A DNA stretch of 33,258 bases from a virus, in the IMG/VR virus record IMGVR_UViG_3300031565_000202, positions 1 through 33,258 of that record; one strand, given 5' to 3'. A program made the position numbers and the translations under genes. Below are positions 11,836-32,822 of this stretch, in pieces. The number at the start of each line of letters is the position of its first letter. Positions within the stretch are counted from its first letter, which is position 1. The notes under the pieces are model-generated. The model was not told the DNA's origin and did not search any database. It saw only the letters and a program-made list of their open reading frames with translations.

Positions 11836-12351
11836 CTATATATCTTTCAATATTCCTTCTCCATAAATTATCAATTTGCATCCTTTTTTCTCAAGTGCAT
11901 CCTTTAAATTCATGAAATGAATCTTAATTTTGTCACATAAATCTGTTTTCAAATGGGGATGATTAACCATATCACAACCAAAAAGATGAATCTCTGTTGC
12001 ATCGTAATGTCTAAATGCGATCTGGCAAGCCACAAACGGTGAGCAAAATGATTTATAAAACTCTGGAATATCTAAGTTTATTTCAGCATTAGGATAGTGA
12101 GGCAGGAAATTAATCTTAACAAATCCTTCTTTAAAATCCCAGTTGACTATCTGACTGTAGAAAGCCCCTGGAGTACATTCATTTATTATCCGGAAACGGT
12201 CATCATTAAAGGCAGTTCTTTTATTAAGACAAACAACAACATCAGTTTTATGAAATCGCCAAATATCATTAACACCGATTGAAAGATCATATTCATTTTT
12301 GTATAAACTAAGTGAAGGGCCAATCCCAAGTACAGCTATTATCTTTCCCAT
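11836..12351 (-). CDS. DUF115/MptE-like protein of the sugar cassette
   Basis: The 171-residue protein opens with a Rossmann-like strand and loop VLGIGPSLSLYK (7-18) followed by SIGVNDIWRF. This G-x-G-P-S-L ... G-V-N pattern is that of DUF115-type proteins, including those linked to sugar transfer onto flagellin and phage-borne relatives. A second conserved part is ATEIHLFGCDMVNH at about 117-130. It is shorter than cellular members and has no membrane segment. It is the last gene of the cassette, overlapping the previous one by 13 bases and followed by a terminator. A role in transferring or handling a nucleotide sugar is likely but not shown. Confidence 0.6.
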   Translation of the reverse strand: MGKIIAVLGIGPSLSLYKNEYDLSIGVNDIWRFHKTDVVVCLNKRTAFNDDRFRIINECTPGAFYSQIVNWDFKEGFVKINFLPHYPNAEINLDIPEFYKSFCSPFVACQIAFRHYDATEIHLFGCDMVNHPHLKTDLCDKIKIHFMNLKDALEKKGCKLIIYGEGILKDI

Positions 12352-13034
12352 CCCGGATCTATTTCAGGTAATCTTTTTGATTTTCTTATATCCCTTGTCC
12401 CCCTTGTATCGTGCTGTATATACTCTCTCGGTTCACCAGTCCAGGTCCATCCCGAACTTGATGAATGACCCAACCCCGGAAATTCAATAAGTATTTTATC
12501 TGATAAACCTTGTCGTTTTATCTCATTCATAGTTTTAAAACAGGGAGCCCCATGATGAACGAAAGGAGGAAATTTAAAATATTGCTCAACAGATATTAAC
12601 ATAAAATAAGGATGCAAATATTTAACAGGTGTCTGATTAGAATGATGTTTATGCGCTCCATATTCAAAACCATCATCACCAGTTAATTCAATATATCCAA
12701 CTCCGTAAGTATCTTCTTTCATTAAATTTAACATCTGCTCAACAGGGCTCTTCAGAAAAACAATATCACTATCAAATATTAAAGCATATTTAGTTTTTAC
12801 CATCCCAAGAGCTGCATCCATGCCACGTCCATGACCTATATTGTAATTAAATATTCCAATGATTGTTTTTTCCGATGCTATAGAACAAACATACTTCCGG
12901 CACGGATCAAACTTATCTGAGCCGTCGATTATTATTAGTGACATATCAGGATGAAACTTTCGGAATGAGCTATAAGCTCTTTCCATTAAGTCCTTACTGT
13001 TACTACATACCGATATTGCAGTAATATCGCTCAT
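12339..13034 (-). CDS. GT2-like glycosyltransferase
   Basis: From the ATG at 13034 the protein (231 aa) starts MSDITAISVCSNSKDLMERA and has a GT-A layout: LIIIDGSD at 33-40, NYNIGHGRGMDAALG at 63-77 and the metal/nucleotide-sugar motif ALIFDSDIVF with Asp88-x-Asp90. A C-terminal EFPGLGHSSSSGW may close the acceptor site. There is no membrane helix, so the enzyme is soluble. Starts at 13046 (ATG) or 13052 (GTG) are possible; all overlap the upstream gene. The sugar donor and acceptor cannot be told. Confidence 0.75.
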   Translation of the reverse strand: MSDITAISVCSNSKDLMERAYSSFRKFHPDMSLIIIDGSDKFDPCRKYVCSIASEKTIIGIFNYNIGHGRGMDAALGMVKTKYALIFDSDIVFLKSPVEQMLNLMKEDTYGVGYIELTGDDGFEYGAHKHHSNQTPVKYLHPYFMLISVEQYFKFPPFVHHGAPCFKTMNEIKRQGLSDKILIEFPGLGHSSSSGWTWTGEPREYIQHDTRGTRDIRKSKRLPEIDPGWER

Positions 13035-13725
13035 AAATTTTTGCATCTTCACCGATTAATGATTTTAAGTAATTCAAATTTGTATCTATATTTTTTGACC
13101 ACCAGGAATGTCCTGCTCCAATACCGGGACGGCCCGGAAGACCTTTTATCCCTATTGCTAAATTTCCTTCCTGAAATAAATTTTTATTCTCTGCATTTTC
13201 CCAAATCCTACAATCTATGAATCTATGAGAATAACTATTTTTAAGAAGTGGTATAACCTTGCATGTAAATGCTGTTTGAAATAAACTTGCATGAATAAGA
13301 TTAGGATTTGTGACTGCTGTACGGTAATAGACGTTGTAATAAATTGTATTTGTCTCCCCGGAAATATCATAACCATTTAATCTCAACATCATTCTTTCGA
13401 GATATATCGGTTTATAATAATCATCATCCTCAATTATAAATATACCCTCAATTTCCTCTTCTTTATAATTAGCAAGTAATGTGTTTATTCCTACCGAGAT
13501 ATTCCGGGCCTGTGTGTTTTGTCCTTCCTGCCATGAAGGAAGAGGATATTTTTTTATTATAGTCCAGTTCTCCCGAAAGTCATCCGGTATTTCAACAGTC
13601 CGGGGAATACAATCATCAATTATTATCCAGACAACTTTTCCGGGATAGGTTTGTTGTTTCATTAATTTTTCACAGATATTTATTTGTATCTGGCGCCCGC
13701 CGGTTGGTGTAATTAATGCTATCAT
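13003..13725 (-). CDS. GT-A fold glycosyltransferase-like protein
   Basis: Starting at the ATG at 13725, which overlaps the stop of the GT11-like gene by ATGA (a longer frame would need TTG), the 240-residue protein opens MIALITPTGGRQIQINICEK. It has VVWIIIDDC at 31-39, QGQ-like EGQNTQARNIS and the acidic motif IIEDDDYYKP at 98-107, which fits a DxD metal site. The C-terminal GIKGLPGRPGIGAGHSWW is a Gly-rich loop probably near the active site. It lacks membrane segments. It is most likely a GT2-type enzyme, somewhat diverged; donor and acceptor unknown. Confidence 0.7.
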   Translation of the reverse strand: MIALITPTGGRQIQINICEKLMKQQTYPGKVVWIIIDDCIPRTVEIPDDFRENWTIIKKYPLPSWQEGQNTQARNISVGINTLLANYKEEEIEGIFIIEDDDYYKPIYLERMMLRLNGYDISGETNTIYYNVYYRTAVTNPNLIHASLFQTAFTCKVIPLLKNSYSHRFIDCRIWENAENKNLFQEGNLAIGIKGLPGRPGIGAGHSWWSKNIDTNLNYLKSLIGEDAKIYERYYCNIGM

Positions 13726-14447
13726 ATTTGTATCCAATTTTTACAATTAATATCATCAGTCTGTACTGGTAATCCCGGGAACCAATCACCCGGGAATATT
13801 GCCTTTGCCTTTGATAACCATGCACCCCACCAACCGAAGGTACTATTTGAACCAATTATATATTTAGCTTTTGTCATTAAATAAAAATCATCTATGGGAG
13901 TATTACTAATATATTCAAAATCCTCTTTTATCGTATCTTTAGCCTTTTGTGGATCATCAGTAATTACAATCACCCTGCGATCTGGAAATTGCTTTAAGGC
14001 TTTCATATAGTAATCTTTAGTCATATTTGTAAATCCCATGTCGAGATACTGCTGTGCGTAATTACGACAATGAATTAAAATACAATCCTTATAAGGAGAC
14101 TTGCCCCTGTATTTAAGAGTGAAATAATACCGGATCAAATCCTCACAATGCTCGAAGTATTTTTCCGATTGCATGTAACCCCAGATTGAGGAGTTATCAG
14201 GAATATCAAAACCAAGAAAATTGCCCTCCGGTATTTCTACATTTGTATAATTACCGGATGTAATTTTTGGCAAAGGATGGACAAAATACTCCTGATTATT
14301 CCATTTAGGGAATCCATAGGAATATCCATTTTTTACAGCTATTCCTATCGTGGAGGCAATAAAGAAAAGAATATTACCGAAGGTATTATCTCCTCTTATA
14401 TCTGCCTTTGGTCTGTTTGAAAACCATTCATTTCTAAAAGTTATCAT
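13722..14447 (-). CDS. GT11-like (alpha-1,2-fucosyltransferase type) glycosyltransferase
   Basis: The 241-residue protein ends with the GT11 signature SNSTFGWWGAWLS at 200-212 (family form SNSSFSWWAAYL), preceded by ITDDPQKAK (162-170). The usual nucleotide-binding HxRRGDY motif is replaced by IHCRNYAQQY at 125-134: His and the first Arg are kept, the following Arg-Gly-Asp is not. The family transfers L-fucose or related sugars from GDP-sugar, but the changed motif makes the donor uncertain. It is soluble and shorter than most members (about 290). It overlaps both neighbours by four bases. Confidence 0.75.
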   Translation of the reverse strand: MITFRNEWFSNRPKADIRGDNTFGNILFFIASTIGIAVKNGYSYGFPKWNNQEYFVHPLPKITSGNYTNVEIPEGNFLGFDIPDNSSIWGYMQSEKYFEHCEDLIRYYFTLKYRGKSPYKDCILIHCRNYAQQYLDMGFTNMTKDYYMKALKQFPDRRVIVITDDPQKAKDTIKEDFEYISNTPIDDFYLMTKAKYIIGSNSTFGWWGAWLSKAKAIFPGDWFPGLPVQTDDINCKNWIQI

Positions 14448-15049
14448 TGTTTTATATATAAAGCGTCACCCCAGGTTATGCCATCCCATTGTGTTTTTAC
14501 TCTTTTGAAATTATTTAAAAATAAATCTATCTCTTCCACTCTTGCACAATTTTTATAAACTTCATCCCGATTTACTTCTGTATAAATTATATCAATAGAT
14601 TTTAAGGTCTCAATAGCTCCCTTGAATACTTCCAATTCATATCCTTGTACATCTATATTGATCATATTATATATAGTGCGATTAAAAGGAATATTATCTA
14701 ACTTATCCATTTTCACAATCTCTTTAGTATCGAATTTTATACCCGGATAACTTGATAGGTGCGTCCCTGGTTCAAGCAAAGAACAACTTTGCCCGGTGTT
14801 TACTGTTTCGATATACATTTCCCTTACTCCTCTTTCGTTGCCTAATGCTATATTATAAGTTCTAGTATTTTCAGGAAGTGATTCAATTAGAATTTTATAA
14901 TTAGCTTGTACGGGTTCAAAGAATATCATATTTTTAATTCCACATTCAGAATAAATTCTATACTCTTCTCCATAGTGTGCCCCAATATGGATAACACCTT
15001 TGATCTTTAAATCAAAATCTTCAATAATATTTTTAAGTGGCATTAACAT
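14444..15049 (-). CDS. FkbM family SAM-dependent methyltransferase
   Basis: The 201-residue protein has the class I methyltransferase motif I as GVIHIGAHYGEEYRIY (18-33), acidic motif II as MIFFEPVQANY (41-51), a central TYNIALGNERG, and MINIDVQGYELEVFKGA followed by IIYTEV near 127-158. These are FkbM-family marks; members O-methylate sugars or small molecules. In this cassette a methylated sugar is the likely product. A start at 15043 (TAATG overlap with the previous stop) is as likely as 15049. No membrane or export signal is present. Confidence 0.85.
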   Translation of the reverse strand: MLMPLKNIIEDFDLKIKGVIHIGAHYGEEYRIYSECGIKNMIFFEPVQANYKILIESLPENTRTYNIALGNERGVREMYIETVNTGQSCSLLEPGTHLSSYPGIKFDTKEIVKMDKLDNIPFNRTIYNMINIDVQGYELEVFKGAIETLKSIDIIYTEVNRDEVYKNCARVEEIDLFLNNFKRVKTQWDGITWGDALYIKQ

Positions 15050-15579
15050 CTTGCTACAAGTATATCATTTAAATAAGTAATCTTTAAATCGTAATCATAA
15101 CCATCCTCAAATGTAAATATATAATCAGGGTTAATCTCTTTAATTTTCTCCATCAGATTATTAATATCAAATCCATGTATATTTTTATCCCACCCCCGGA
15201 GATCATCTATTAAAATAGTATGATTCTTTACATTATGGTTCTTAATCGCTTCTAACTCCTGAAGGAGAGGTGAATTTAAACTACCTAATGCCGTTTCACC
15301 TCCCGAATAATGACCATCCAGCCAAAACGTAACAGACTCTTTTATCATTGTTAGTAGAGTGTCAAGCATCTCACCTGAGTCACCAAGTATAAGATGAATA
15401 TTATTATTTTCCTTGAACTTGTCCACGCAATTCTTGTAAAGATTCTTTGATAATTCTATTGAATAGATTGTATTAAATCCTTCATCAAGAGCTTGCTGAA
15501 TACCATCACCCTTATAAGAGCCTGTTTCTATAAAAATATGATTAGGATATTTCCTAAAAAGTCCTCTAGGGGCTGACAT
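15043..15579 (-). CDS. SAM-fold protein, probable methyltransferase
   Basis: The 178-residue protein shows HIFIETGSYKGDGIQQA at 14-30, a variant of SAM-binding motif I, then TIYSIELSKNLYKNC (37-51), HLILGDSGEML (62-72) and FWLDGHYSGGETALG (85-99). The Rossmann-like order fits a class I methyltransferase, and the G-H-Y-S-G-G-E-T loop is distinctive. It pairs with the FkbM gene downstream, overlapping it by one to seven bases. I recall similar proteins next to phage and surface-sugar glycosyltransferases but cannot name a family with certainty. Confidence 0.6.
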   Translation of the reverse strand: MSAPRGLFRKYPNHIFIETGSYKGDGIQQALDEGFNTIYSIELSKNLYKNCVDKFKENNNIHLILGDSGEMLDTLLTMIKESVTFWLDGHYSGGETALGSLNSPLLQELEAIKNHNVKNHTILIDDLRGWDKNIHGFDINNLMEKIKEINPDYIFTFEDGYDYDLKITYLNDILVARC

Positions 15580-16150
15580 ATTGATTAAAATTATTAATGA
15601 TTTGTTCGTAGTTCACTTCTCTTTGCTCTATATCTGAAAATCCAGTGCGTTGAGTTGCCACAAGGGGAGTTATAATATAGCAATTAAATTTGAGCTGCAC
15701 GTCATAGGCATAAAAAACATCTATCGTTTTTCGTAGCTCCGTTTCATAGTTATCAAAATTATTTACAATATAATTCACCATGCGTTGAGAATTATAGATA
15801 ATAGCATGAGCGCAGAAGGCCTCCGTTATTCTGCAAAGATTTTCAGAGTATCTCTCTACAGATCTCATCAGTGTAGCACCCAGCCACAGCGCATCCCATG
15901 TTAAAGGAAGTTGTGATATTGCTTTTTCAACAATATCCCACGACTGAAGCAATTCACAATCATCTTCAAATATTGCAAAAGGATATTCTTTCTGCCTGCT
16001 CATAATAAGTAATTGAGAAGCCGTGCAACCAATCCATCCGGGATCGGTTTTAATAGCATTGAATCGCTCCACTTCGAACGGAAATTTATTCTTTTTAAAT
16101 TCCTCCATCCGATCTGTTCTTTCAAGAAGATTTACAACATACGCTTTCAT
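15566..16150 (-). CDS. GT25-like glycosyltransferase
   Basis: The 194-residue protein starts MKAYVVNLLERTDRMEEFKK, the GT25 opening (VINLxxRxDR), followed by FEVERFNAI (25-33), GCTASQLLIMSRQKEYPFAI (41-60) and the acidic FEDDCEL (61-67) that fits the metal site. GT25 enzymes add galactose or similar sugars to LPS or proteins. The protein is about 50 residues shorter than bacterial LPS members and has no membrane segment. It lies between the radical SAM gene (six-base gap) and the SAM-fold gene (14-base overlap). Confidence 0.8.
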   Translation of the reverse strand: MKAYVVNLLERTDRMEEFKKNKFPFEVERFNAIKTDPGWIGCTASQLLIMSRQKEYPFAIFEDDCELLQSWDIVEKAISQLPLTWDALWLGATLMRSVERYSENLCRITEAFCAHAIIYNSQRMVNYIVNNFDNYETELRKTIDVFYAYDVQLKFNCYIITPLVATQRTGFSDIEQREVNYEQIINNFNQYVSP

Positions 16151-16156
16151 GGGCTT

Positions 16157-17251
16157 TTATATCATTTTTGACCAATTAGTTAATGTTTCTATCGATTGTT
16201 CATAAGTATAAAATGGTACTCCTGATTCTAAATATGTATTATCATCAAATCCATATTCTTTTGCTTTACGGTGTATCTCCGTTCCCGGAAGAATCCATGC
16301 GATATTCGGACCATATTGAGTTATCCTGCTTCTTAATCTATTTTGTCTTGTCTCTTCAATATTTTTATAAGTATCTCCAGGAAGCCCAACAAGAAATAAA
16401 CTCATAGTATTAATTCCAATTGTTTCTGCTATTTCGATTCCTTTTAACATTTTTTCAACTGTAGTTTTTTTATTCATTCTATCTAAAGCATCCTGACTTA
16501 ATGATTCGATTCCTAAATGAATTTTCCTGCATCCTGCCCTGTAAAGTTCTTTACAAAGTTCCTCATCCAATGATTCAGCCCTTCCAACGCATTCCCAGAT
16601 TAAACTACCATCTAGATGCGAACATATTTCGAACACTCTTTTTTTGTTTGCAGTAAAATTATCATCATAAAAAATCCAGGTATTATAACCTTCTGACTTT
16701 CTTTTTTCTATCTCTAAAATTACATTATCTACTGATCGTATCTTGTAACTATGTCCCCAGAAGTTGGAAGAGCCGCAAAAATTACAAGAGAACGGACATC
16801 CACGAGAAGATATAATTGAAATACCATGTGGACTATTAAAATTAAATCCCGAATAATCAGGTAATGGAACTTCATTTATACCATAAAAATATTTACGCTC
16901 ACAATTAACTATCTTTGAGTCGTTCCCTTGAATAATATCTATTATAGCATTTTCACCCTCACCAATTACGACTTGATCATAACCTATTGAAATCATTTGA
17001 TCAGGAAGAGCCGAAGGATGATGACCACCACAAATCAATTTTCCTTTGAATCTTTCTCTTATTTGTTTTGCGTATTTAACCGAGAAGCTATGGAAACTAA
17101 CCCCGACTAAATCGTAATCATCTGAAATAACATCACTGATATTTCTTGCATCAACATCTACTTTCCAATGTTTTAAAGCAGCCTGTAAATAACCGATTGC
17201 CGGAGGTGGTAACTGATCTTTTTCCCAAGGATCTATTAAAAGTACTTTCAT
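16157..17251 (-). CDS. B12-binding domain radical SAM protein
   Basis: From the ATG at 17251, which shares one base with the previous stop (TGATG; the longer frame would need TTG), the protein has 364 residues. Residues 1-115 resemble a cobalamin-binding domain: PPPAIGYLQAAL, LVGVSFHSF and GGHHPSALPD, then IGEGE. The radical SAM core follows with Cys152-x3-Cys156-x2-Cys159 in RGCPFSCNFCGSS, then a KIHLGIESLSQDALDRM strand near 245-261. Such enzymes do difficult methylations or rearrangements, including on sugars and peptides. Here the neighbours suggest sugar or sugar-protein modification; the substrate is unknown. Confidence 0.88.
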   Translation of the reverse strand: MKVLLIDPWEKDQLPPPAIGYLQAALKHWKVDVDARNISDVISDDYDLVGVSFHSFSVKYAKQIRERFKGKLICGGHHPSALPDQMISIGYDQVVIGEGENAIIDIIQGNDSKIVNCERKYFYGINEVPLPDYSGFNFNSPHGISIISSRGCPFSCNFCGSSNFWGHSYKIRSVDNVILEIEKRKSEGYNTWIFYDDNFTANKKRVFEICSHLDGSLIWECVGRAESLDEELCKELYRAGCRKIHLGIESLSQDALDRMNKKTTVEKMLKGIEIAETIGINTMSLFLVGLPGDTYKNIEETRQNRLRSRITQYGPNIAWILPGTEIHRKAKEYGFDDNTYLESGVPFYTYEQSIETLTNWSKMI

Positions 17252-17871
17252 CAGAAATCTTTTGGGTGAAAGTGACAAACATAATATTCCGGTGTTGGTA
17301 TTTTCATTGAAGGATGAGGTAAAAGATATTTTTCAATCATTCGCCAATCATGAGCGTAACCATCCCCCCAAACAACATTCAAGTCTTTACGATGTGCTAT
17401 CATACTCGTTCCGATATAGTATAACTCAGGACTTACTTCTCTTTCTTTAAAGATCAGGTCCTCCCCCTCCTTGCCCTGTATTAAATAATCATTATAGTAA
17501 ACCCAGTCATCTTTGAAGTTATCATTTATGATCTTGAGATGATCTATTCCTATATAATCATCATGATCAAGATAAGTTATTATTTCACCCTGTGCCATCT
17601 CAATACCTGTCTGCCTGACCCTTCCACCAAAGATAGATTGCTTTTCAATATAGGCATATTTAATCCGTGATATATGAGAGAATTCAATATCATATAATTG
17701 TTCAGTAATCTTGCAACCATCGGAGATTATAATAAGTTCAGTATCATTAAATGACTGCCTGATAAATGAATCGACTGCACGAAGAAATTTTATCACAGGA
17801 TCTTTAGCACTTTTTATTTCATTGATCTCGTAAGCTTGAAGAAATGCAGGCATTATAACAGAAATTCTCAT
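17251..17871 (-). CDS. GT2 family glycosyltransferase
   Basis: The 206-residue protein starts MRISVIMPAFLQAYEI, a standard GT2 opening, with ELIIISDGC at 45-53 (nucleotide binding), GGRVRQTGIEMAQGEIITYL (82-101) and the DxD-type motif DHDDYIG at 102-108. A C-terminal WGDGYAHDWRMIEKYL holds the probable catalytic Asp region. It is a compact, soluble, single-domain enzyme. It overlaps the 79-residue gene upstream by ATGA and the radical SAM gene downstream by one base. Donor and acceptor are unknown. Confidence 0.85.
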   Translation of the reverse strand: MRISVIMPAFLQAYEINEIKSAKDPVIKFLRAVDSFIRQSFNDTELIIISDGCKITEQLYDIEFSHISRIKYAYIEKQSIFGGRVRQTGIEMAQGEIITYLDHDDYIGIDHLKIINDNFKDDWVYYNDYLIQGKEGEDLIFKEREVSPELYYIGTSMIAHRKDLNVVWGDGYAHDWRMIEKYLLPHPSMKIPTPEYYVCHFHPKDF

Positions 17872-18107
17872 ATTTCGTTCTCCATTGTTTTTTTAATTCT
17901 ATAAACACTCCATTCACCTATTTTGAAATCTTCACTAACATAAAATACTGATTTGCTCACATTATGACCTTGTTTTTTATAGTAATCAAATCTGGAATAA
18001 ATCTCAAAATGTCTTATAACAGATGACGGAAGAACACCTAATTTTATTTGTTCTTTTATTCCATCGGGTTTTAGAATGTTTTTATTTATGTATTCGAACC
18101 TGTTCAT
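17868..18107 (-). CDS. small possible helix-turn-helix protein, 79 aa
   Basis: The protein is helical and basic. GVLPSSVIRHFEIYSRFDYY (24-43) followed by VSKSVFYVSEDFKIGEWSVY (50-69) and RIKKTME suggest a compact winged or helix-turn-helix fold with the last helix as reader. It lies directly between the tape-measure gene (ATGA overlap) and the first glycosyltransferase (ATGA overlap). It could regulate the cassette or be a tail-assembly protein. No family is recognised. Confidence 0.6.
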   Translation of the reverse strand: MNRFEYINKNILKPDGIKEQIKLGVLPSSVIRHFEIYSRFDYYKKQGHNVSKSVFYVSEDFKIGEWSVYRIKKTMENEI

Positions 18108-20560
18108 ATCACTGCCCGGATTTCAACTTTTGTCTTTGCCTTTGCCACATTTTCATACGCCTCAACAGTTACGATCGGAGTCGGTAATTTACTAATAGCA
18201 TTTGCAATGTCTGCTGCTGTTAATAAGTTTTGCGGTGCTACGTTTAGTTGTTGTTGTGTCAGTTGTGGTTGTGTGAAAAAAGAGGAAGCAACCGGAGAAG
18301 CAAATGTTCTTTGTGCTGCCGGAGTTGATGTTATGGATGTTGGTGCTGATATTGACGGAGTTCCTTTTCCGGATGTGTCAACTTTTAAAATATTCTTTAC
18401 AGTAGCTAATCCCGATAAAATTATGGTTACCATTGCTGCTATACGTGCAAACGTTGAAGGCATTGTGGGATCACGTAAAGCCAGAGATGCACCAACCCAA
18501 GTATTAATTGTAGCCTGTGCTGCTGCAAAAAACTTACCTGCTGTTGTTTCCTCTCCTAAAACAGAAGACAAAGCACCAAGCGCATCTGCTGCTCTATCCC
18601 TATTCGTTATCCATATTTCAGTAGCAAGATTATCCGCATTTATTCCATCTCTTATTATAGCTTCATTTCCTTTTTGAACATCCTCATTAAATTTGAGTTC
18701 ATCAAGCTTTATTTGTTTTCTGGTTTTTGATCCAAGCAGATCATTATTTATTAACTTCTGTAAATTTTCTATTTCTTTTTCCATGCCTTTTTTAGAAGCT
18801 TCCATTGCTTTTACAGCATCTTCTTTAGCTTTTACAGCAGCTATCGTAGCTTTTTCAGCAGCTTCCACTTCTGCCTGTTGTCGTTGTAGTTTTTCAGTTG
18901 CTATCCGCTTTTCCTCTGCTTCTGCTTTTAATTTTATTTTTAATAAATCATCTTCCTTCTTTTTTTCAATTTCCATCACAGAGGACATACTATCTGAATA
19001 TTCCTGAGTTTGTTTCTTACTTCTGAATGCAGCATTGCCTAAAGCATTCCAGAAACCTATACCTTGATCACCATAAAATCTAAATTTATCTCCAAAAGTC
19101 TCGATAGTTCGTACATCAAACATCCTGTCTACAGCTGGCTTTCCTGTCGTATTTATGTAAGTCACTATTGCTGTTAATCCACTCAAAAAACTTTTTAATG
19201 CCCCGGTAGATTTATTAAGTCTTAATATAAATCCTTCCCATGCACTTTTAAGAATAATTACTGATCCCTGTACATTATCTAACATAACCCCTGCCATGTC
19301 TTTTGCTGCCCCTTCTATATCCCGCAAACGATTAGCAGATTCTTCCATTATATCATTATTGTCTGCTAATATAAGCCCTGCCACTGCTCCTCTTTTTCCA
19401 AATAATGCAAGTGCCGTAGACGCCTTACTTTGTGAACCCTGTATTTTATTCATAGCTTGATCCCATGTCAATCCTGACTTTGCTAATTCCAAATATATAT
19501 TACGTAATGAAGTTCCTGCTGTACTTGCATCCAATCCGGCATCAGCTAAAAATCCCAACTTGTTAGTTGCATCTTCTATATCATCACCAACAGCAGCAGC
19601 AACAGGGCCAGCTTTTGCCATAGCAATTTCAAACTTAGTAATATCAAGCGCTGAAGTGCTGAAACTCATTGCCATAACATCTACTACCCGCCCCATTTCA
19701 GAAGCATCAAGATTAAATTGTCGCATGGTAGCACCAGCAACTTTTGAGGCCGTACTTATATCAGTACCAACGGCAGCAGCTAAGTCTAATGTTGCTGCTG
19801 TAATTGCAAGTATTTCATTTGTTGTAAATCCCAATTTAGCATATTCTTTTTGAAGCCCTGCCACTTCCGTTGCTGTAAATTTTGTCGACCCTCCAAGAGA
19901 AATTGCATTTGATCGCAACCTATCAAATTCATCTGATGTTGCTCTTGTAATTGCCTTTACCTGGGACATGGCATATTCAAAATTAAATGTAGTTTTAAGT
20001 CCATTTTTTATTACATTAAAGAAAGCTCTTGCTGCCATCGCCACAGAAGCATAAATACCAAGAGTTGACATTAGATTTTTTGCCATTCCCCCGATTGATT
20101 GAGAATATCTCCCGACATTTGTACGTCCATCTTTTTGAGCCTGATCATATGCTATTACTGCACCTTTTGCTTGTGATAATGCCTTAACCTGATTAATATA
20201 TGCTTGAGACAAAACCCTGACTCCTTTTTCATTTATTGTGTAAGTATTTGCCAAAGCACCTAATCGCTTTTGTTCTAGTGTCACAATAGCATTAAGCTGT
20301 TTTCTGGAATTGATATTTGAGTTATTAGCTTGTGTCTGAAGGTCAACAGCTTTTTTAGCATCCCTATATTCCTTTTGTGCATTGCGAAGCGCTGCACTTG
20401 TCTTCTCTTTTTCCGCAGTTGTAGCCTTATCACTAGCCTGCATCTTCATATTTTCAAGAGTCAGTCTCTCAACTTCTTCCCGTGCCTTCGCTGCATCCTT
20501 AGCGTACTTATCCAGATTACTCTCTACATTTACCAGATATTTTTTTTCTTCTGTTGCCAT
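18104..20560 (-). CDS. tail tape measure protein (TP901 type)
   Basis: The 818-residue protein has an N-terminal coiled coil (about 10-140), then the TP901-family core at about 190-430: FNFEYAMSQVKAITRAT, SLGGSTKFTATEVAGLQKEY, TSALDITKFEIAMAKAGPVA, GLDASTAGTSLRNIYLELAK. A Lys/Glu-rich coiled coil (about 535-640) and a hydrophobic segment near 690-745 (ARIAAMVTIILSGLATVKNI) follow. The protein sets tail length; at roughly 1.5 angstrom per residue, tail length would be about 120 nm, i.e. a long-tailed phage. It shares one base with the previous stop and overlaps the 79-residue gene by ATGA. Confidence 0.93.
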   Translation of the reverse strand: MATEEKKYLVNVESNLDKYAKDAAKAREEVERLTLENMKMQASDKATTAEKEKTSAALRNAQKEYRDAKKAVDLQTQANNSNINSRKQLNAIVTLEQKRLGALANTYTINEKGVRVLSQAYINQVKALSQAKGAVIAYDQAQKDGRTNVGRYSQSIGGMAKNLMSTLGIYASVAMAARAFFNVIKNGLKTTFNFEYAMSQVKAITRATSDEFDRLRSNAISLGGSTKFTATEVAGLQKEYAKLGFTTNEILAITAATLDLAAAVGTDISTASKVAGATMRQFNLDASEMGRVVDVMAMSFSTSALDITKFEIAMAKAGPVAAAVGDDIEDATNKLGFLADAGLDASTAGTSLRNIYLELAKSGLTWDQAMNKIQGSQSKASTALALFGKRGAVAGLILADNNDIMEESANRLRDIEGAAKDMAGVMLDNVQGSVIILKSAWEGFILRLNKSTGALKSFLSGLTAIVTYINTTGKPAVDRMFDVRTIETFGDKFRFYGDQGIGFWNALGNAAFRSKKQTQEYSDSMSSVMEIEKKKEDDLLKIKLKAEAEEKRIATEKLQRQQAEVEAAEKATIAAVKAKEDAVKAMEASKKGMEKEIENLQKLINNDLLGSKTRKQIKLDELKFNEDVQKGNEAIIRDGINADNLATEIWITNRDRAADALGALSSVLGEETTAGKFFAAAQATINTWVGASLALRDPTMPSTFARIAAMVTIILSGLATVKNILKVDTSGKGTPSISAPTSITSTPAAQRTFASPVASSFFTQPQLTQQQLNVAPQNLLTAADIANAISKLPTPIVTVEAYENVAKAKTKVEIRAVI

Positions 20561-22836
20561 TATAATTTTATTAAATCAACTGTGCATAATCTGCCTGAAA
20601 TATAATTGTTAATTTTGTTGACGTAAAAGTACGCTTTATATTGAGATAAATAAACAGGCACGTTATGCTGTAATCCTGCAACTTCATAAACAGGTAAGTT
20701 AAATTTAGCTCTTCGTAGATTTGTTTTTGTGAGTAACCGGGAAAGAGATGCGTAATTTGTCACCAGATTAGAAAATGATATTTCAAGCGAAGATGCTATC
20801 CTTACATCAGCGATACTTGCCGAATTAACATCACGGTCAACCGTATCCCATGCAACAAACGTCCTTCCTGTGGCTCGCTTCACATATACAACCCTCGCAT
20901 CGATTGTCTTTTCCTGTGCATAAGCTCCCACTTTATTGTCGTATTTATTAAAGGTTATTCTTGATACTGTTGTTGGGATTGTAGTTGCAATGATCACTTC
21001 ATCACAAGTAGATAAAGGCAATGTAATAACGTCCTTCTGTGATTGCAAGGTTTCATCTTCAACCTGCATTATCCCTTTGCCGTTATCTTTTATTACATCA
21101 TCTGACTCTTTATAATTTAGTAAGTTGCTTTGTGCGTAATCGCCGAACTTAAATTCTGATTCATCTTCACGCTCCGAAAGATAAGCAGACCAATCCCGGG
21201 CAATAGACATATTTTTATATAAATCTGAGTAGTTCCAGAACTTGATTTTTTTATCTCTTGATATGACCTCCGGGATAAGTCCAAACATATTACAAATCAT
21301 CTTTATAAAATCTGTTTGCGTAAAATCAGGTAAATGATTAGCTGCAACAACCGTTGAATTATAAGCGATTGTTGCTCCTGTTATTTCAGTAATAGCAATA
21401 GAATAATAATGACACAAAAACGCAGTAGTTAATATAGCCACTGCCTGACCTGCTATTCCTGTTACTTCATATTCATAAGTAGTACCAATAAGAAATGTAT
21501 TAACAATAGTCATATCTCCATCATAAACACCGCCCAAATATACTGATAATGTTGGTGAAAATCCAATCGGTTGCCATACTGTAACTGTCATCTTATACGT
21601 TCCGGAATAAGGTAAAATGTAATATCCTCTTAAAAAATCTGCATCTCCATTTATTAATGTCGCTCCTGTGAATGCAAGCAACTCATCATTGACAGTAGTA
21701 TGAGAACCTATCCACCAAACGGAATACAAATACTTATCAGTACTCCCCTTTGTAATATTGAGATTATTAATTGGCATATACATTGACAAGAATCTATCAT
21801 CTGTAAGTATATCCCCGGATTTGCTATATCCTGCGTCGGAAAATATCTCATCCCATAGCTTTGATACTTTAAAGAAAGGCCAGATAAATCCACCATACAT
21901 ATTAACCGTGTTACCTGCAAGTCCCAATGGAGCAATACCAGAATCATCCGATGGCTCGCATAAAGGATAAAGATAATCCGGTAATGCAACAGAGTCCTGT
22001 GATGCTTTTATATTTGCTATTGTCCAGTCATGATCAGCAATAGTTGTTATATCAGCCAGTTTTTTGTCAGCTATCAGATTAAAAAAAGATCGGTTCCCTG
22101 AAAGTATTGAAACATAATAATACTGATCATCTGTTTTATCAAGTATCATCTCTCCTGCTGTTATGACTTCAACGCTGTCTTGTACTAATTTACAAGTTTG
22201 TTTTTGATAAGGAAAAGTGGTATTAGCTCCGACCTCTCCAGATAGTTCAAACAGTGCCATCATTGCACGAGTCTTTCTTATTCGAAACTGTGCAGTAAAA
22301 TCAGACTGCCTGTCCTGCATCTCTGCAATGTCATTGACTTGTTTGTTCAACGGTATTATTTCATCATCATCAAGATCGCAAAGGGTATCTCCAATGTATA
22401 ACTTAATCAGATTCTGGAAGACAGTTGATCTTAATAGCATCTCCTTCCGAGTTATCGTGAAGTCAAAAATATAAGCATCAGTATCAGGATTCTTAATAAG
22501 ATGATCGCCTCTTGTTATCTCTACTTCGTACCATTTAACACCTTCGTATTGTTCTACTTTCTCCGCCATAAGAAGATTGGCGAATCCCCTGATGTTTGCG
22601 GGTGTGATTCCTGATAGTGTTACCTGATATGAATATTCTGCATCTAGTTTTGTCGGACGTTCTACTTTTGATACTCGTGAAAACATTCTTGTTACTTGCG
22701 TATCCAGTGATTCGGACTGCATCACAATTTCATAACCATTCTGAAAGTTGAAGTAATGCCAACCATTATACCACCATTTCAGATATATTCCTGTAATACA
22801 ATGAGATATATTTATTCTAACTGGGCCAATTTTCAT
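20560..22836 (-). CDS. large tail or baseplate protein, 758 aa
   Basis: No standard family is obvious. Residues 13-40 contain ITGIYLKWWYNGWHYFNF, almost the same as residues 48-66 of the 500-residue lectin-like protein at 23227-24729, and similarity continues for about 100 residues (VTLSGITPANIRGFANLLMA / WYEVEITRGDHLI). The middle has a beta-sandwich-like region (about 380-480) and DFTQTDFIKMICNMFGLIPE (500-519), a segment typical of tail-tip proteins. The gene lies just before the tape measure. I infer a distal-tail or baseplate hub component sharing an attachment domain with its neighbour. Confidence 0.65.
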   Translation of the reverse strand: MKIGPVRINISHCITGIYLKWWYNGWHYFNFQNGYEIVMQSESLDTQVTRMFSRVSKVERPTKLDAEYSYQVTLSGITPANIRGFANLLMAEKVEQYEGVKWYEVEITRGDHLIKNPDTDAYIFDFTITRKEMLLRSTVFQNLIKLYIGDTLCDLDDDEIIPLNKQVNDIAEMQDRQSDFTAQFRIRKTRAMMALFELSGEVGANTTFPYQKQTCKLVQDSVEVITAGEMILDKTDDQYYYVSILSGNRSFFNLIADKKLADITTIADHDWTIANIKASQDSVALPDYLYPLCEPSDDSGIAPLGLAGNTVNMYGGFIWPFFKVSKLWDEIFSDAGYSKSGDILTDDRFLSMYMPINNLNITKGSTDKYLYSVWWIGSHTTVNDELLAFTGATLINGDADFLRGYYILPYSGTYKMTVTVWQPIGFSPTLSVYLGGVYDGDMTIVNTFLIGTTYEYEVTGIAGQAVAILTTAFLCHYYSIAITEITGATIAYNSTVVAANHLPDFTQTDFIKMICNMFGLIPEVISRDKKIKFWNYSDLYKNMSIARDWSAYLSEREDESEFKFGDYAQSNLLNYKESDDVIKDNGKGIMQVEDETLQSQKDVITLPLSTCDEVIIATTIPTTVSRITFNKYDNKVGAYAQEKTIDARVVYVKRATGRTFVAWDTVDRDVNSASIADVRIASSLEISFSNLVTNYASLSRLLTKTNLRRAKFNLPVYEVAGLQHNVPVYLSQYKAYFYVNKINNYISGRLCTVDLIKL

Positions 22837-22943
22837 TTTTGCTTTTTCTCTTTTAACTGTTTCTCATAATACTGTTCATTATAAAGAACAATGATTTTTT
22901 TAGCGTGTTCGTACGCTGCTTTTGTAATTCTCTTTTTTTTCAT
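22833..22943 (-). CDS. very small basic protein, 36 aa
   Basis: The frame reads MKKKRITKAAYEHAKKIIVL and ends EKQLKEKKQK. It is a single basic helix with many Lys and Tyr residues. It overlaps the gene before it and the gene after it by ATGA on both sides, which is strong evidence that it is translated. No function can be given; it may mainly couple translation into the 758-residue gene. Confidence 0.65.
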   Translation of the reverse strand: MKKKRITKAAYEHAKKIIVLYNEQYYEKQLKEKKQK

Positions 22944-23230
22944 ATCTTTAACCATTCATAAAGTTTATTCCAGATCATTGACATCAGTATCCCGGCCGAA
23001 CAAAAAAATAACATTTCAATAACGTTACCAGAAATATCAAAATGCTTTGTAATAATAAAATACCACAAACAGACTTGTCCGGTCAGGCATATATGACAAC
23101 CTCCCAGAGGCCGGCAAAGCCATTCAGGTAATTGGCAAATCAATTTACGATACCAATGGAATATCTTACCTTTTTCACCAAGAGCGTAAAACATGTAACA
23201 GATAAGGGATATCTTTAGTATCAAAATCAT
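22940..23230 (-). CDS. small membrane protein with CxxC motif, 96 aa
   Basis: It starts with a hydrophobic segment (MILILKISLICYMFYALG), has a central PEWLCRPLGGCHICLTGQVC (35-54) and a second hydrophobic stretch (VIEMLFFCSAGILMSMIW, 70-87). The C-x-x-C (CHIC) with further Cys residues could be a redox or metal site near the membrane. It lies within the tail module, between the lectin-like tail protein and a 36-residue ORF. Membrane proteins are unusual there. I recall similar phage proteins but no named function. Confidence 0.7.
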   Translation of the reverse strand: MILILKISLICYMFYALGEKGKIFHWYRKLICQLPEWLCRPLGGCHICLTGQVCLWYFIITKHFDISGNVIEMLFFCSAGILMSMIWNKLYEWLKI

Positions 23231-24729
23231 GTCACTAAATCTTTACAAAGTTTAGCTGCACTATCAGTATGTCCCGGTTGTGCAATAATCAGATCAGTAT
23301 TATTTGACCCCGTTCCTATTGCTGTCCCTGTTCCTGTAACTGCTACGTTTGTTATATTTGACCACGCATGAGTATCTTCCGTAGTAGGGGGGGCAGATTC
23401 ATAATATCCATAAGAGCCACCTCCTAAATCAATCTTATGAAATATATATCCGTCAGCAGGGCCACCATCTCTTAATACATATATATCGCCAGCTATAAAA
23501 TATCGGCAAGCTCTGAATAATGTTGCGTTTCCTTTTGGTACATAAATTGCTCCTGCTCCTGCAAAGCTATATCCTGATGAACCATTTGCACCATTTTCAG
23601 TACTTGTCAAGTATGTTACCGCAGAGAATCCCCCCATGCCAAATAAATGCAATTGATTGTACATTGCAATTGATTCATCTAATGAAGGCAGGAACCAATC
23701 ATCAAATATCGGAGCTGTATCTTTCACCAGCCTGACAGAAAGATAAAATGTTTTTAAAGCATTGTAAAAATCTAATGCGGCAGAATTATTAAATACTCTT
23801 GCAAAATAACCCCTGTCTCCATCATATTCTGTTGCTGTCCATACAGCAGCTATTAACCCTAATCCATAATAATTAGATGGGGACCAGCCATAACCATTAG
23901 GAAGTAATGTAAATCCATAAGTATCAACTGCCCCTGTATTGGGTGCATCCCAGTGATCAGTACCAACCTCTTTTAATTCACCTCCTGCCACGGCTAATCC
24001 ACCTATCTCTGTAATAAGGTTTTGCCAGTTCGCAAGTGTCGCAACATGCCAGCCGAAAGGCGCAAAACCAGAAGCATTAATCTGTGCCCATGTATATAAT
24101 CCTCCATAGATCGCACGGTTTGATTCGTCGTCATTATAAACTTTTGAGCCCGGATATTTCGAATCATAATTTTTACATGACCATATAAGTGAACCTATTA
24201 TTACTTCACAAAGGCCCGGATCACCGGGATCAACTTCCGGTATATCATCAACAGGACTGTAACCAGTCGGTGATATTTCCCTGCTTCCTATTGTAGTTAT
24301 AATCTCCTGTTCGTATCCATTGATCTGATTTTTGTAAGTGATGACTGATCCTTGTTCAACCCTGATATTTTTCCAACCATCGGAAGTTAATATATAGACT
24401 TCCCGGGTAAGCAGTATTGTTCTGATAGCCTGGACCTGGTTATAGCTGATTTGTCCTGATCCCATTGTTACCTTCCTGGTTCCAATTGTACGATATTCTT
24501 CTCCTTCTGTTATCATATTTATTTCACCCGGACGAAAGAACCAATAGTGCCAGCCATTATACCACCATCTCAAATAGTAACCCTTGCACGCATTTCTGAT
24601 GGGAATTGTTGTTGGCCTGTCAACTATTGTTCCTATCCTGATCGGAAACCCAGCAGCGGTATAGATAATCTCTCCGTCAGCTGTCCGCAAATCAGAATAT
24701 TCAAGTATATGACTTATTCCTACTTTCAT
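23227..24729 (-). CDS. tail protein with FISUMP and DUF1566-like lectin-fold domains
   Basis: The 500-residue protein has an N-terminal attachment domain (about 46-150, with YYLRWWYNGWHYWFF) shared with the 758-residue tail protein. A FISUMP domain spans about 172-337: IGSLIWSCKNYD, YGGLYTWAQI, FGWHVATLANWQNLI, WTATEYDGDRGYFARVF and the closing LSVRLVKD. A DUF1566-like domain is at about 342-410 (DDWFLPSLDESIAMYNQLHL, TSTENG). Both belong to the C-type-lectin fold group that phages use for host binding and that is often targeted by diversity-generating retroelements. It is the best receptor-binding candidate here. It overlaps the next gene by ATGA. Confidence 0.82.
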   Translation of the reverse strand: MKVGISHILEYSDLRTADGEIIYTAAGFPIRIGTIVDRPTTIPIRNACKGYYLRWWYNGWHYWFFRPGEINMITEGEEYRTIGTRKVTMGSGQISYNQVQAIRTILLTREVYILTSDGWKNIRVEQGSVITYKNQINGYEQEIITTIGSREISPTGYSPVDDIPEVDPGDPGLCEVIIGSLIWSCKNYDSKYPGSKVYNDDESNRAIYGGLYTWAQINASGFAPFGWHVATLANWQNLITEIGGLAVAGGELKEVGTDHWDAPNTGAVDTYGFTLLPNGYGWSPSNYYGLGLIAAVWTATEYDGDRGYFARVFNNSAALDFYNALKTFYLSVRLVKDTAPIFDDWFLPSLDESIAMYNQLHLFGMGGFSAVTYLTSTENGANGSSGYSFAGAGAIYVPKGNATLFRACRYFIAGDIYVLRDGGPADGYIFHKIDLGGGSYGYYESAPPTTEDTHAWSNITNVAVTGTGTAIGTGSNNTDLIIAQPGHTDSAAKLCKDLVT

Positions 24730-25238
24730 GAAGTATAAGTGATTGTAGCTCCGTAAATTGCATCGTCAATATCTATTGAGGTAACAATAATAATGTAAAT
24801 ATACAAACTATTATCAATGACTGCCCCCATGATCGAATCGTCCCTGGTATTAACAAATTCATAACACATATCAACCACGTTCAGATCAGACAGTCTAATC
24901 CTTTTTAGACTGTAATGTTCAGCTCCCGCTGCAGCGTTACCCGATACCTTAACACTCGTGACAGTAGCTCCGTGGGGCAAAGAGACAGGAGCACGCATAA
25001 AAACCCCATCCATGTTGGCAGTAAAAGTACCGAGATCGTTTAAAGTAATATCATCAGTATCAGGATGACTACCAACGAAATTAGTGCCGGCGCAGCTCCA
25101 GTATTTTGTTTCACTAACAGCAAGTAATCTCGCCACGGTAGTATATTCCGTTACTCCTGTTGTGATGTTATGAATAAGTAATTTGTCAGTTGGTAAAACT
25201 GTCGCCCGTAGGGCTAAATCGGTTGGAAATATTGCCAT
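24726..25238 (-). CDS. tail-associated protein, 170 aa
   Basis: The N-terminus (LRATVLPTDKLLIHNITTGV followed by EYTTVARLL, about 10-39) resembles the short helical/strand segment found in many phage tail-fibre proteins (TDKLLIHD...G). The rest is a beta-sandwich-like region (THAT-type VSLPHGATVTSVKVSGNAAA, 85-105). It overlaps the lectin-like gene by ATGA and may be a fibre partner or a tail-surface protein. No catalytic motif is visible. Confidence 0.65.
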   Translation of the reverse strand: MAIFPTDLALRATVLPTDKLLIHNITTGVTEYTTVARLLAVSETKYWSCAGTNFVGSHPDTDDITLNDLGTFTANMDGVFMRAPVSLPHGATVTSVKVSGNAAAGAEHYSLKRIRLSDLNVVDMCYEFVNTRDDSIMGAVIDNSLYIYIIIVTSIDIDDAIYGATITYTS

Positions 25239-25250
25239 AATTTCTATTTT

Positions 25251-26222
25251 TTATTCTGGTATTTCAATTTCTGCGGTCATGTGATGTGCCGTTGCTGGGA
25301 TTGTAGTCTCGTCGATAGTCAATGAATTAATAAAGCCTTCCAGTTCATCAGCTGCAACATTGGTTACAATATCAGCCCCTAACTGTGTATTAGCGGAGTT
25401 GTATATTTTCAGTGTCACGATCAATTCAGAAGCTGGAAATACTATAGGAAATTCAGGAAGGATAAAAGATATATCAAATGGTAAGCCTAAAAAATAAACA
25501 GGCTCATCAAATAGATTAAGGAATGGCGCATCGGCAAGAGTTGTCGGAACATATTCATGAAGATTAGATCCTTGTTCCTCACTTCGTACACACTCACCGT
25601 AATACCAAAGTATCTCATCAGACGGCGGCGATATACAACCACCTTCCGGTATCCAGCCTTCCGAACTTCCGTACCAGGCTCCCCTGTATTCAAATGACCA
25701 TTTGCCAGATTTGGTTGTCTCTTTCATTATCTGCGCCGTGTAATCGCCTACTTTTCCCAGTGCGGTATGAATTCTTAGAATACCAGAGACATCAAGGTCA
25801 GCATAACCAAACATGTCAGGGGAAGCAATAACGGTCAATGTCTCAACAATATCATTAATTGTTAATCTGCCTTCAAAGTAATAACCCCCATAGACAGTAT
25901 TATCATTCAGATAAGTAATATTCATTCCAGCGACATAAGGAATATCCGTTGTCAGAATGTCCCCGGCTACATTGGTAATCGTCCCTACATACATCGAATT
26001 GTTTGTCAGGTTATAAACTGCAATAGCATCATCATCTGTTCCGGTGAAAGGCGTTGACGTTGTGATCTCCAAAAATCCTCCATTATCTGCTGTTGCTCCT
26101 ATGAGCCAGTCCTGACGTAATAAACGGAAATTATTTGCTGACTCCGTTGCAACCCATCGGGATATTATCAGCGGGTCCAGCGGTTCAGCGTATTCAGGGG
26201 TGCTAATTAAACTTATGGCCAT
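25251..26222 (-). CDS. tail-associated beta-rich protein, 323 aa
   Basis: The protein begins AISLISTPEYAEPLDPLIIS, has beta-rich modules (about 5-90; 110-200 with FEYRGAWYGSSEGWIPEGGC), and a C-terminal region with ATAHHMTAEIEIPE. Its Trp/Tyr/Gly content and lack of enzyme motifs suit a structural or adhesin role in the tail. It starts 12 bases before the next gene and its start is overlapped by the stop of a 43-residue ORF. No family is recognised. Confidence 0.65.
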   Translation of the reverse strand: MAISLISTPEYAEPLDPLIISRWVATESANNFRLLRQDWLIGATADNGGFLEITTSTPFTGTDDDAIAVYNLTNNSMYVGTITNVAGDILTTDIPYVAGMNITYLNDNTVYGGYYFEGRLTINDIVETLTVIASPDMFGYADLDVSGILRIHTALGKVGDYTAQIMKETTKSGKWSFEYRGAWYGSSEGWIPEGGCISPPSDEILWYYGECVRSEEQGSNLHEYVPTTLADAPFLNLFDEPVYFLGLPFDISFILPEFPIVFPASELIVTLKIYNSANTQLGADIVTNVAADELEGFINSLTIDETTIPATAHHMTAEIEIPE

Positions 26223-31317: not shown

Positions 31318-31641
31318 TTATTTAGTTAGATTATTTTTGATGTCATGATATGCTAAATAACACTCTTCTTGTTTTTGATCATCAATTTGGAAAGTTGGAT
31401 GCAATGCAATGACCGATTCCATAAATCTTCCAATCATCTCATCTGTTATTTCCTTCACTTCCTGCGATTCAAGAGCTGCGAGTTCGGATTCAAGTCTTTC
31501 AAGTATTGATTCAAGTTGTTTTAATCCAATTTCCCACATATCTACCCTGATATCTCCATGAACAAATTTTTGCCAATGTTTTATTATTTTATTCAGAATC
31601 TTTTCTTTTTCTTTCAGTTTTGCAATTATCTCGTCTTTCAT
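31318..31641 (-). CDS. coiled-coil early protein, copy A, 107 aa
   Basis: The first 60 residues (MKDEIIAKLKEKEKILNKII and on, to SELAALESQEV) are almost identical to those of the 146-residue gene at 32369-32809, because a 199-bp segment is duplicated (31456-31654 and 32624-32822). The rest (KEITDEMIGRFMESVIALHP and on) differs. The shared part is a charged coiled coil, suited to dimerisation. Function unknown. Confidence 0.7.
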   Translation of the reverse strand: MKDEIIAKLKEKEKILNKIIKHWQKFVHGDIRVDMWEIGLKQLESILERLESELAALESQEVKEITDEMIGRFMESVIALHPTFQIDDQKQEECYLAYHDIKNNLTK

Positions 31642-31654
31642 CTTACTTGTTATT
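31456..31654. repeat. 199-bp direct repeat, copy A
   Basis: This segment matches 32624-32822 with about three mismatches near its left end (around 31474-31479). It covers the first 60 codons of the 107-residue gene plus 13 bases of leader. Copy B is 1168 bases away. Between the copies are an HNH gene and a 104-residue gene. Confidence 0.9.
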
Positions 31655-31957
31655 AATTTCGTTTAACCAATATTCAAATACTTTATCCATATCTGGAAAT
31701 GTTTTATAATCACCTCCATTGTCATTCAAAATAGAATATTTATAACCTAAATCATCCCTATCATCAATATCAACATATTCTATACAGTATCTCACAAATA
31801 ATTCAGGATAGCCTTTCTCTGTGTCCTCTATTACTTCTTTAAGTTCATCTATTAAATGTGATCTTAATTCGTATTTATCTTTAGGATATTGAATAAGAAA
31901 ACTTAAAATCCTATCAAGAACTCTTTTTCTTCTAATGTCTATTCTTGTGTATTTCAT
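31643..31957 (-). CDS. hypothetical acidic protein, 104 aa
   Basis: Helical N-terminus with basic residues (MKYTRIDIRRKRVLDRILSF), then acidic segments (YVDIDDRDDLGYKYSILNDN) and a C-terminal VFEYWLNEINNK. It follows the HNH gene by seven bases and its stop is one base from the start of copy A. It has no recognised motif. It is one of the genes lying between the direct repeats. Confidence 0.7.
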   Translation of the reverse strand: MKYTRIDIRRKRVLDRILSFLIQYPKDKYELRSHLIDELKEVIEDTEKGYPELFVRYCIEYVDIDDRDDLGYKYSILNDNGGDYKTFPDMDKVFEYWLNEINNK

Positions 31958-32368: not shown

Positions 32369-32809
32369 TTAATTAGATTTTTTAATTGTGATTTTGATAT
32401 TCTCAAGGCTTATTCCGTTACCATAACCATTCATAGCTCCAATGATAGTTGGGATATTGTCTTTTATACTTAATCCTGCCATGCAATGACCATCAAAATC
32501 AATGTCATATTCCTTTTCGTCTGTTACCTTTGAGGACTGTTGGGAGTATTCTGCAAGCTCCTTAATTCTCATTAATCTTGCTGTTTCAAATCCTTCATCA
32601 AATCCTTTTTTATATTCTCCCTCCACTTCCTGCGATTCAAGTGCGGAGAGTTCGGATTCAAGTCTTTCAAGTATTGATTCAAGTTGTTTTAATCCAATTT
32701 CCCACATATCTACCCTGATATCTCCATGAACAAATTTTTGCCAATGTTTTATTATTTTATTCAGAATCTTTTCTTTTTCTTTCAGTTTTGCAATTATCTC
32801 GTCTTTCAT
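32369..32809 (-). CDS. coiled-coil early protein, copy B, 146 aa
   Basis: The first 60 residues are near-identical to the 107-residue gene. After LESQEVEGEYKKGFDEGFET the sequence diverges into a charged helix (ARLMRIKELAEYSQQSSKVT) and a C-terminal beta region (DEKEYDIDFDGHCMAGLSIK, GNGISLENIKITIKKSN). Copy A and B look like one gene duplicated and then given different ends. Function unknown. Confidence 0.75.
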   Translation of the reverse strand: MKDEIIAKLKEKEKILNKIIKHWQKFVHGDIRVDMWEIGLKQLESILERLESELSALESQEVEGEYKKGFDEGFETARLMRIKELAEYSQQSSKVTDEKEYDIDFDGHCMAGLSIKDNIPTIIGAMNGYGNGISLENIKITIKKSN

Positions 32810-32822
32810 CTTACTTGTTATT
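32624..32822. repeat. 199-bp direct repeat, copy B
   Basis: Copy B of the repeat at 31456-31654, 1168 bases away. It includes the leader and first 60 codons of the 146-residue gene. Differences from copy A are confined to about three bases near 32642-32647. Confidence 0.9.

Follow-up and report, generated by a model that had tools for sequence, protein, structure and literature searches.

The analysed DNA, referred to below as the window, comprises 33,258 bases of the IMG/VR virus record IMGVR_UViG_3300031565_000202, and all its tail-tip genes discussed here lie on the minus strand. The virus is a phage of Bacteroidota-type bacteria. Following transcription, M1 comes first; next are a 170-aa protein and the head, then a 96-aa protein, and last the hub and the tape measure. 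The subject of this analysis is the N-terminal domain shared by the 500-aa head and the 758-aa hub, designated D; its head copy is denoted D', its hub copy D'' and the copy found in a third protein family outgroup D.

The partners of the two copies were identified separately. The FISUMP domain of the head was detected well above the cut-offs (PF09603, 75.4 bits against 33.9; TIGR02145, 81.8 against 41.65), and Pfam placed no domain between D' and FISUMP (residues 184-336). The hub core was determined to be of the gp27/Mu gp44 type: model residues 142..758 were aligned along the whole of Mu gp44 (1wru) with a VIA Z of 13.5 over 290 residues, and Z values of 12-15 were obtained with the Mu gp44, MuSo2 43 kDa, VgrG1, AFP and P1 hubs over model residues ~140-758. 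A C1q/TNF-like insert at residues 363-490 gave VIA Z values up to 13.2 (117 aligned, root-mean-square deviation 2.5; best Foldseek E 2e-5), which are near those of the hub fold itself. The search of the hub against PDB sequences resulted in a single chance-level match, Cerebellin-4 (E 0.54), on this insert.

Homology of the head and hub N-termini

In a single BLASTP comparison, hub residues 5-43 were aligned with head residues 39-76 (20/39 identities, 45.8 bits, E 3e-9). The local alignment of the two window domains scored 108, the maximum of 1000 shuffles being 58. Both open reading frames of the preliminary description were recovered as given there, and the shared motif named there, WWYNGWHY, was located at residues 21-28 of the hub and 55-62 of the head. 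The motif region is also a 43-nt DNA repeat (79%; 24534-24576 / 22743-22785). The motif had been called rare, which does not hold within this family: WWYNGWHY occurred in 22 open reading frames of the fetched loci, some of them from the same contig taken twice. That the two 8-mers agree to the letter is in part fortuitous: the majority of heads have YYNGWHYW and the majority of hubs WFNGWHYF.

The profile alignment of the two N-termini, which had been suggested earlier as a check, was made with 25 heads (A1) and 26 hubs (A2) and reached a probability of 99.3% (E 1.2e-20) over 106 columns. Two results speak against a similarity extending beyond the motif. With the motif removed, the window pair scored 26, equal to the shuffled mean (488/1000 shuffles reached 26), and the head and hub profiles matched at only 21.9% (at most 2.6 in 200 column shuffles). 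Of the weak similarity over about 100 residues proposed previously, the segments VTLSG.../VTMGSG... and TITRKE/TIGSRE stood opposite each other in the multi-family alignment. The whole outgroup D profile matched the head family at 97.8% and the hub family at 97.7%, and after removal of the motif the values were 95.3% and 92.7%, respectively (maxima of 8.2 and 4.0 in 100 column shuffles each). As outgroup D matches both families without the motif, the homology of the whole domain is firm, and it is only through the outgroup family that the longer head-hub similarity becomes so. On this sequence evidence, the N-termini of the hub (residues 1-142) and the head (about 38-160) are homologous. The view that only the motif is shared, as an aromatic-rich hairpin arisen by chance or recombination between otherwise unrelated N-termini, draws on the two results without the motif, but it is very improbable and largely refuted by the motif-free matches of outgroup D at 93-95% (controls at most 8.2), by the Trp of hub 102/head 119 kept in 67/68 domains and by the agreement of strand-helix order in the head and hub models.

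The outgroup family and the duplication of D

The comparison loci, designated by L-numbers, were collected by contig scans. Among viral contigs, 36 loci were obtained with the hub query, 7 with the head N-domain query and 69 with a hub-core query (A5), which lacks the N-domain and was chosen so as not to favour N-domain carriers. The genome-contig scan yielded one locus, a Bacteroidales metagenome-assembled genome, and the search of phage records with the head N-domain gave no match.

Distant hubs, including those of phi46:1 (gp20), TCUEAP1 and BS-TP3, start at window residue ~145 and are devoid of the N-domain. In some of these outgroup loci the A1/A2 profiles located D in the C-terminal third of a ~380-aa protein encoded just upstream (best L095, 7.8e-9). 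With the outgroup D profile, the domain was found in the open reading frame just upstream of the hub in 34/34 loci whose hub has no N-domain; the profile was built from 18 of the 34 and the other 16 were found by it, and L108 was included in the 34 despite a core match that started only at profile position 338. D is carried by phi46:1 gp19, which like gp20 is annotated as a structural/virion protein by mass spectrometry. The finding of D also provides a candidate assignment for a Bacteroidota phage protein family previously without a function, PHROG 37065, which matched phi46:1 gp19, BS-TP3 gp58 and L095; Pfam gave no match on phi46:1 gp19 or on M1 and D of L104. The window M1 resembles, by profile match, the first part of the outgroup M1-D proteins L104, L031/L082, L103, L108 and L086. 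Separate open reading frames for M1 and D already exist in L104 and L086, the D ones being 156 and 172 aa long from stop to stop.

In a maximum-likelihood tree of 68 domains, the 25 heads, 25 hubs and 18 outgroup D were each placed on one side of a branch, with supports of 94/95, 100/99 and 97/90, respectively. The tree has long branches and a midpoint root only; L029_hub, with an insertion inside the domain, and the repeat or near-copy contigs L009, L015, L017, L025, L026, L039, L040, L042 and L045 were left out. Head and hub copies share derived changes: the W-to-Y spacing of the hairpin was 7 in 25/25 heads and 25/25 hubs and 9 or 10 in 18/18 outgroup D, and the motif His was present in all 25 heads and all 25 hubs and in 0/18 outgroup D. 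The three clean groups together with these changes indicate that the head and hub copies arose by one old duplication of D in the clade of the window. The earlier claim that a domain was duplicated and is now carried by both a hub and a host-binding head is well supported by the single duplication on the tree, the gp27/Mu gp44-type core and the FISUMP head.

The hub with D'' was found in 37 contigs, one locus per contig with near copies included, so that these are not 37 independent cases; L030, L032 and L038, in which the start of the hub is missing, were counted neither with nor without D''. A head with D' was encoded upstream in 31 of the 32 D''-hub contigs having at least 2.7 kb of upstream DNA. 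A D''-hub with no head upstream, L023, stands against this pairing; its contig is only 5.9 kb. Own-phage head-hub scores were slightly higher than others (24 pairs; 20/2000 permutations reached the observed mean). Concerted evolution of D' and D'' was not adopted as the cause, as shared phage ancestry explains this equally well.

The likely path leads from a fused M1-D protein through its split to the duplication of D, with one copy joined to the hub core and the other to the lectin-like head; the order of these steps (fusion, split, duplication, fusions) is what we infer. The apparent intermediates are the fused M1-D proteins, the separate M1 and D genes of L104 and L086, and D', D'' and the heads in the clade of the window. 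The descent of a hub and receptor-binder pair from one tail-tip protein can thereby be traced.

The modules attached to D vary. FISUMP was present in 25 of the 27 heads scanned, the exceptions being L018 and L081. A beta-helix precedes the hub D'' in L010 and L006/L017, as recognised by eye (with a weak Pfam match in L006 only), and in L058 and L112, as detected by Pfam. LamG precedes D'' in L023, and a beta-helix precedes the head D' in L043. As judged from these architectures, both D copies can bear extra N-terminal domains. An LRR-like module that the window encodes as a gene of its own (5085-6200) forms part of the receptor-binding head in L007 and occurs in a partial open reading frame of L052. 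The window gene (minus strand) encodes a 371-aa protein with fibronectin-like and LRR-like repeats and has 63-nt tandem repeats at 5382-5570. The position of D' is also an exchange site for host-range modules (FISUMP, beta-helix, LRR-like), with LamG found on D''. FISUMP is a listed target class of diversity-generating retroelements in the available part of PMC4159848. Such an element was considered and rejected: RVT_1 was detected in 0/1 window and 0/20 related, possibly incomplete, records, and no template repeat near the head was found among the direct repeats of the window.

Predicted fold and placement of the domain

In the AF2 model of D', blocks 51-70 and 81-150 averaged pLDDT values of 79-90, block 71-80 had 61, and the part before residue 42 was poor. 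The best 50 rows each of the Foldseek and VIA lists were considered. Judged by titles, 49/50 of the Foldseek PDB matches listed were phage tail, tail-like-machine, neck or type VI secretion system tube proteins. VIA-align to residues 1-134 of the p2 Dit (2wzp_P) gave a Z of 7.6 with a root-mean-square deviation of 3.0 over 100 aligned residues. In the viral library the model matched many uncharacterised phage proteins, including those of Flavobacterium, Cellulophaga, Nonlabens and Polaribacter phages. D' was assigned with moderate confidence as a predicted tail-tube/Dit-like domain, and the fold of D'' rests on homology and on an order of strands and helix that is the same as in D'.

Several points weigh against this assignment. 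Among the Foldseek PDB matches listed for D' none had E < 0.001, every VIA Z was below 8, and 5 of the 50 listed VIA rows, the first included, were proteins unrelated to phages (flavin reductases, PlzA, LnzB) with tied Z. The mean pLDDT of the D' model was only 70. In the full-length hub model D'' had a pLDDT of 24-50, showing the strand/helix order of D' and no confident fold; the fold comparison named earlier as a refuting test was thus complete for the head only. Pfam gave no match to D, and the head and hub N-domain profiles matched no solved Dit or tube among PDB sequences; Dits diverge beyond sequence detection. A further possibility is that the actual Dit is M1 instead of D. Here the genes are arranged as D protein, hub, tape measure, as against the usual tape measure, Dit, Tal, which the available text of PMC7291167 gives for most, not all, siphophages.

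The predicted tail-tube/Dit fold of D' suggests a ring-forming part rather than a peg; at the tail tip, D probably serves as a ring domain. The preferred explanation, given a probability of about two in three, is that D is a Dit-like domain of the tail-tube fold which was duplicated once. Related phages have it once, in the tail protein whose gene immediately precedes that of the hub. In the lineage of the window D'' became the N-terminus of the gp27/Mu gp44-type hub, and D' the base of what would be a receptor-binding protein displaying FISUMP lectin-like heads. D', D'' or both would be situated in or around the ring joining the tail tube and the hub. D'' may keep the ring-stacking role with its axial contacts, because it keeps the loop present in outgroup D, and D' may use the same lateral interface to hang the heads on the ring. 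In known siphophages, as far as the accessible part of PMC7291167 describes them, the Dit hexamer joins the tube to the hub trimer and carries receptor binders.

The length from motif to helix was 40 residues in D' and 57 in D'' (25/25 each), compared with 57-63 in outgroup D, from which D' differs by a shortening of 17-23 residues (17-19 in 17/18). The missing segment would correspond to the position of the tail-tube long loop, which in T5 mediates much of the contact between stacked rings (PMC10038345, in the portion available). If so, the axial contacts would be left to D'', with no more than a lateral or peripheral place for D'. Since D' lost about 17 residues kept by D'' and outgroup D, equivalent positions are unlikely; by this comparison the two copies are probably not interchangeable at the same site. 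Of the docking domain that the preliminary description had placed on both proteins to fix them at one tail-tip site, the duplication was retained, whereas docking at the same site is disfavoured by the ring-type fold predicted for D' and the loss of ~17 residues.

Two specific arrangements of the ring were considered, besides the possibility that D' would only decorate it. In one of them, which is tentative and on balance doubtful, three D'' of the hub trimer would alternate with three D' bearing FISUMP heads in a mixed 3+3 ring descended from a Dit homohexamer. Rings made up of paralogous tube-fold proteins do exist, as reported for Hcp heterohexamers in the available part of PMC13323088, and PDB 9vne is among the Foldseek matches listed for D'. 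If true, the receptor-binding heads would be integral to the wall of the tail tube next to the hub, from where their binding could act directly on the opening of the hub; receptor binding would then be coupled without intermediates to the junction of tube and hub. In the other arrangement, a sub-case of the preferred explanation and rather unlikely, D' alone would form a six-fold Dit ring with its heads outward, and D'' a three-fold collar on the hub beneath. A Dit hexamer on a Tal trimer is the usual layout in the text available from PMC7291167, and the copy number of D', which has its own gene, is unconstrained. However, it is D', not D'', that lost the long-loop segment, which is odd for the copy stacking on the tube, given the role of that loop in the accessible part of PMC10038345.

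An improbable alternative to a ring domain is a generic docking peg, by which D would fix two independent proteins at one tail-tip site and form no ring. The unrelated partners of the two copies agree with it, as do the beta-helix or LamG fused before D'' or D' in several relatives, where D acts as a module carrier. It is at odds with the predicted tail-tube/Dit ring fold, with the absence from D' of about 17 residues that every D'' and outgroup D retains, and with outgroup D being part of a single protein beside the hub.

Neighbouring genes and comparison with known systems

Table 1. Positions of the tail-tip features in the window.
Feature	Position	Strand	Evidence
Head gene, 500 aa: D', FISUMP domain and further C-terminal region	23227..24729	-	Pfam PF09603, TIGR02145
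D' of head, residues about 38-160, tail-tube/Dit-like fold predicted	24250..24618	-	A1 alignment, AF2 model, Foldseek and VIA matches
WWYNGWHY of head, residues 55-62, in strand pair of model	24544..24567	-	Open reading frame, A1 alignment, model
FISUMP (Fib_succ_major) domain, head residues 184-336	23722..24180	-	Pfam
Hub gene, 758 aa: D'' and gp27/gp44-like core	20560..22836	-	Open reading frame, model, VIA
D'' of hub, residues 1-142	22411..22836	-	A2 alignment; absent from outgroup hubs
WWYNGWHY of hub, residues 21-28	22753..22776	-	Open reading frame, A2 alignment
Hub core, residues 143-758, gp27/Mu gp44-like	20563..22410	-	VIA match to Mu gp44 1wru
C1q/TNF-like beta-sandwich inserted in hub core, residues 363-490	21367..21750	-	VIA, Foldseek
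M1 (323 aa), related to the first part of outgroup M1-D protein	25251..26222	-	Profile match
170-aa accessory protein between M1 and head, no D carried	24726..25238	-	Open reading frame, profile scan
96-aa small hydrophobic protein with CxxC pair, between head and hub	22940..23230	-	Same place in most relatives
Tail tape measure protein, 818 aa, downstream of hub	18104..20560	-	Profile libraries

The first ~40 residues of the 170-aa protein (24726-25238) are common to an otherwise different 175-aa protein of L012 (7361-7885), encoded there between the 96-aa protein and the hub; they are perhaps another attachment segment. Another 170-aa protein (3063-3575, minus strand) has relatives at differing places in other loci, one of them, in L006 between the head and the 96-aa gene, matching Pfam GIY-YIG and NUMOD3; the gene is mobile and homing-endonuclease-like. 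A cassette between the tape measure and capsid-protease genes (12339-18107, minus strand) varies in gene content between relatives and includes a family-2 glycosyltransferase (17251-17871), a B12-binding/radical SAM protein (16157-17278) and a number of unassigned genes. A 215-nt direct repeat was detected at 31452-31666 / 32620-32834, the copies being 96% identical and 1168 nt apart.

In the portions available of the literature on Dit-Tal, evolved Dits, FISUMP, Bacteroides phage baseplates and tail-tube duplication, no description of this duplication was found. The Dits of siphophages (p2 ORF15, T5 pb9, SPP1 gp19.1) resemble D in the predicted tail-tube-type domain and in a gene adjoining the hub, and the p2 Dit ranks near the top of the VIA list for the window D' (Z 7.6). 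The solved Dits differ in that no sequence match was obtained, that the genes here precede the hub and the tape measure, and that D is present twice in the clade of the window. In the evolved Dits of lactococcal and streptococcal phages, a Dit-like domain likewise carries lectin-type domains, likely aiding adsorption (available parts of PMC7291167 and PMC10688798). In those phages the single Dit has the module inserted within its galectin domain, whereas here FISUMP follows a duplicated copy and the other copy is on the hub. The hub core (residues 142-758) is comparable with the gp27/Mu gp44/VgrG-type hubs along the whole of Mu gp44, to which the window hub adds the N-terminal D and the inserted C1q-like domain (363-490). 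In Cellulophaga phage phi46:1 (gp19-gp20-gp21) and Elizabethkingia phage TCUEAP1, the order of D protein, hub and tape measure is that of the window. In contrast, these two phages and Bacteroides phage BS-TP3 have one D, fused behind M1, a hub with no N-domain and no FISUMP head. T5 pb6/pb3, with duplicated or fused tail-tube domains and pseudo-sixfold rings, are a precedent for duplication inside tail rings in the accessible text of PMC10038345; both T5 copies belong to one polypeptide, those of the window to two proteins. The shared part is better named a Dit-like ring domain, and the system a variant of known tail-tip parts, which suggests that such phages may build their host-gripping device by copying a structural ring part.

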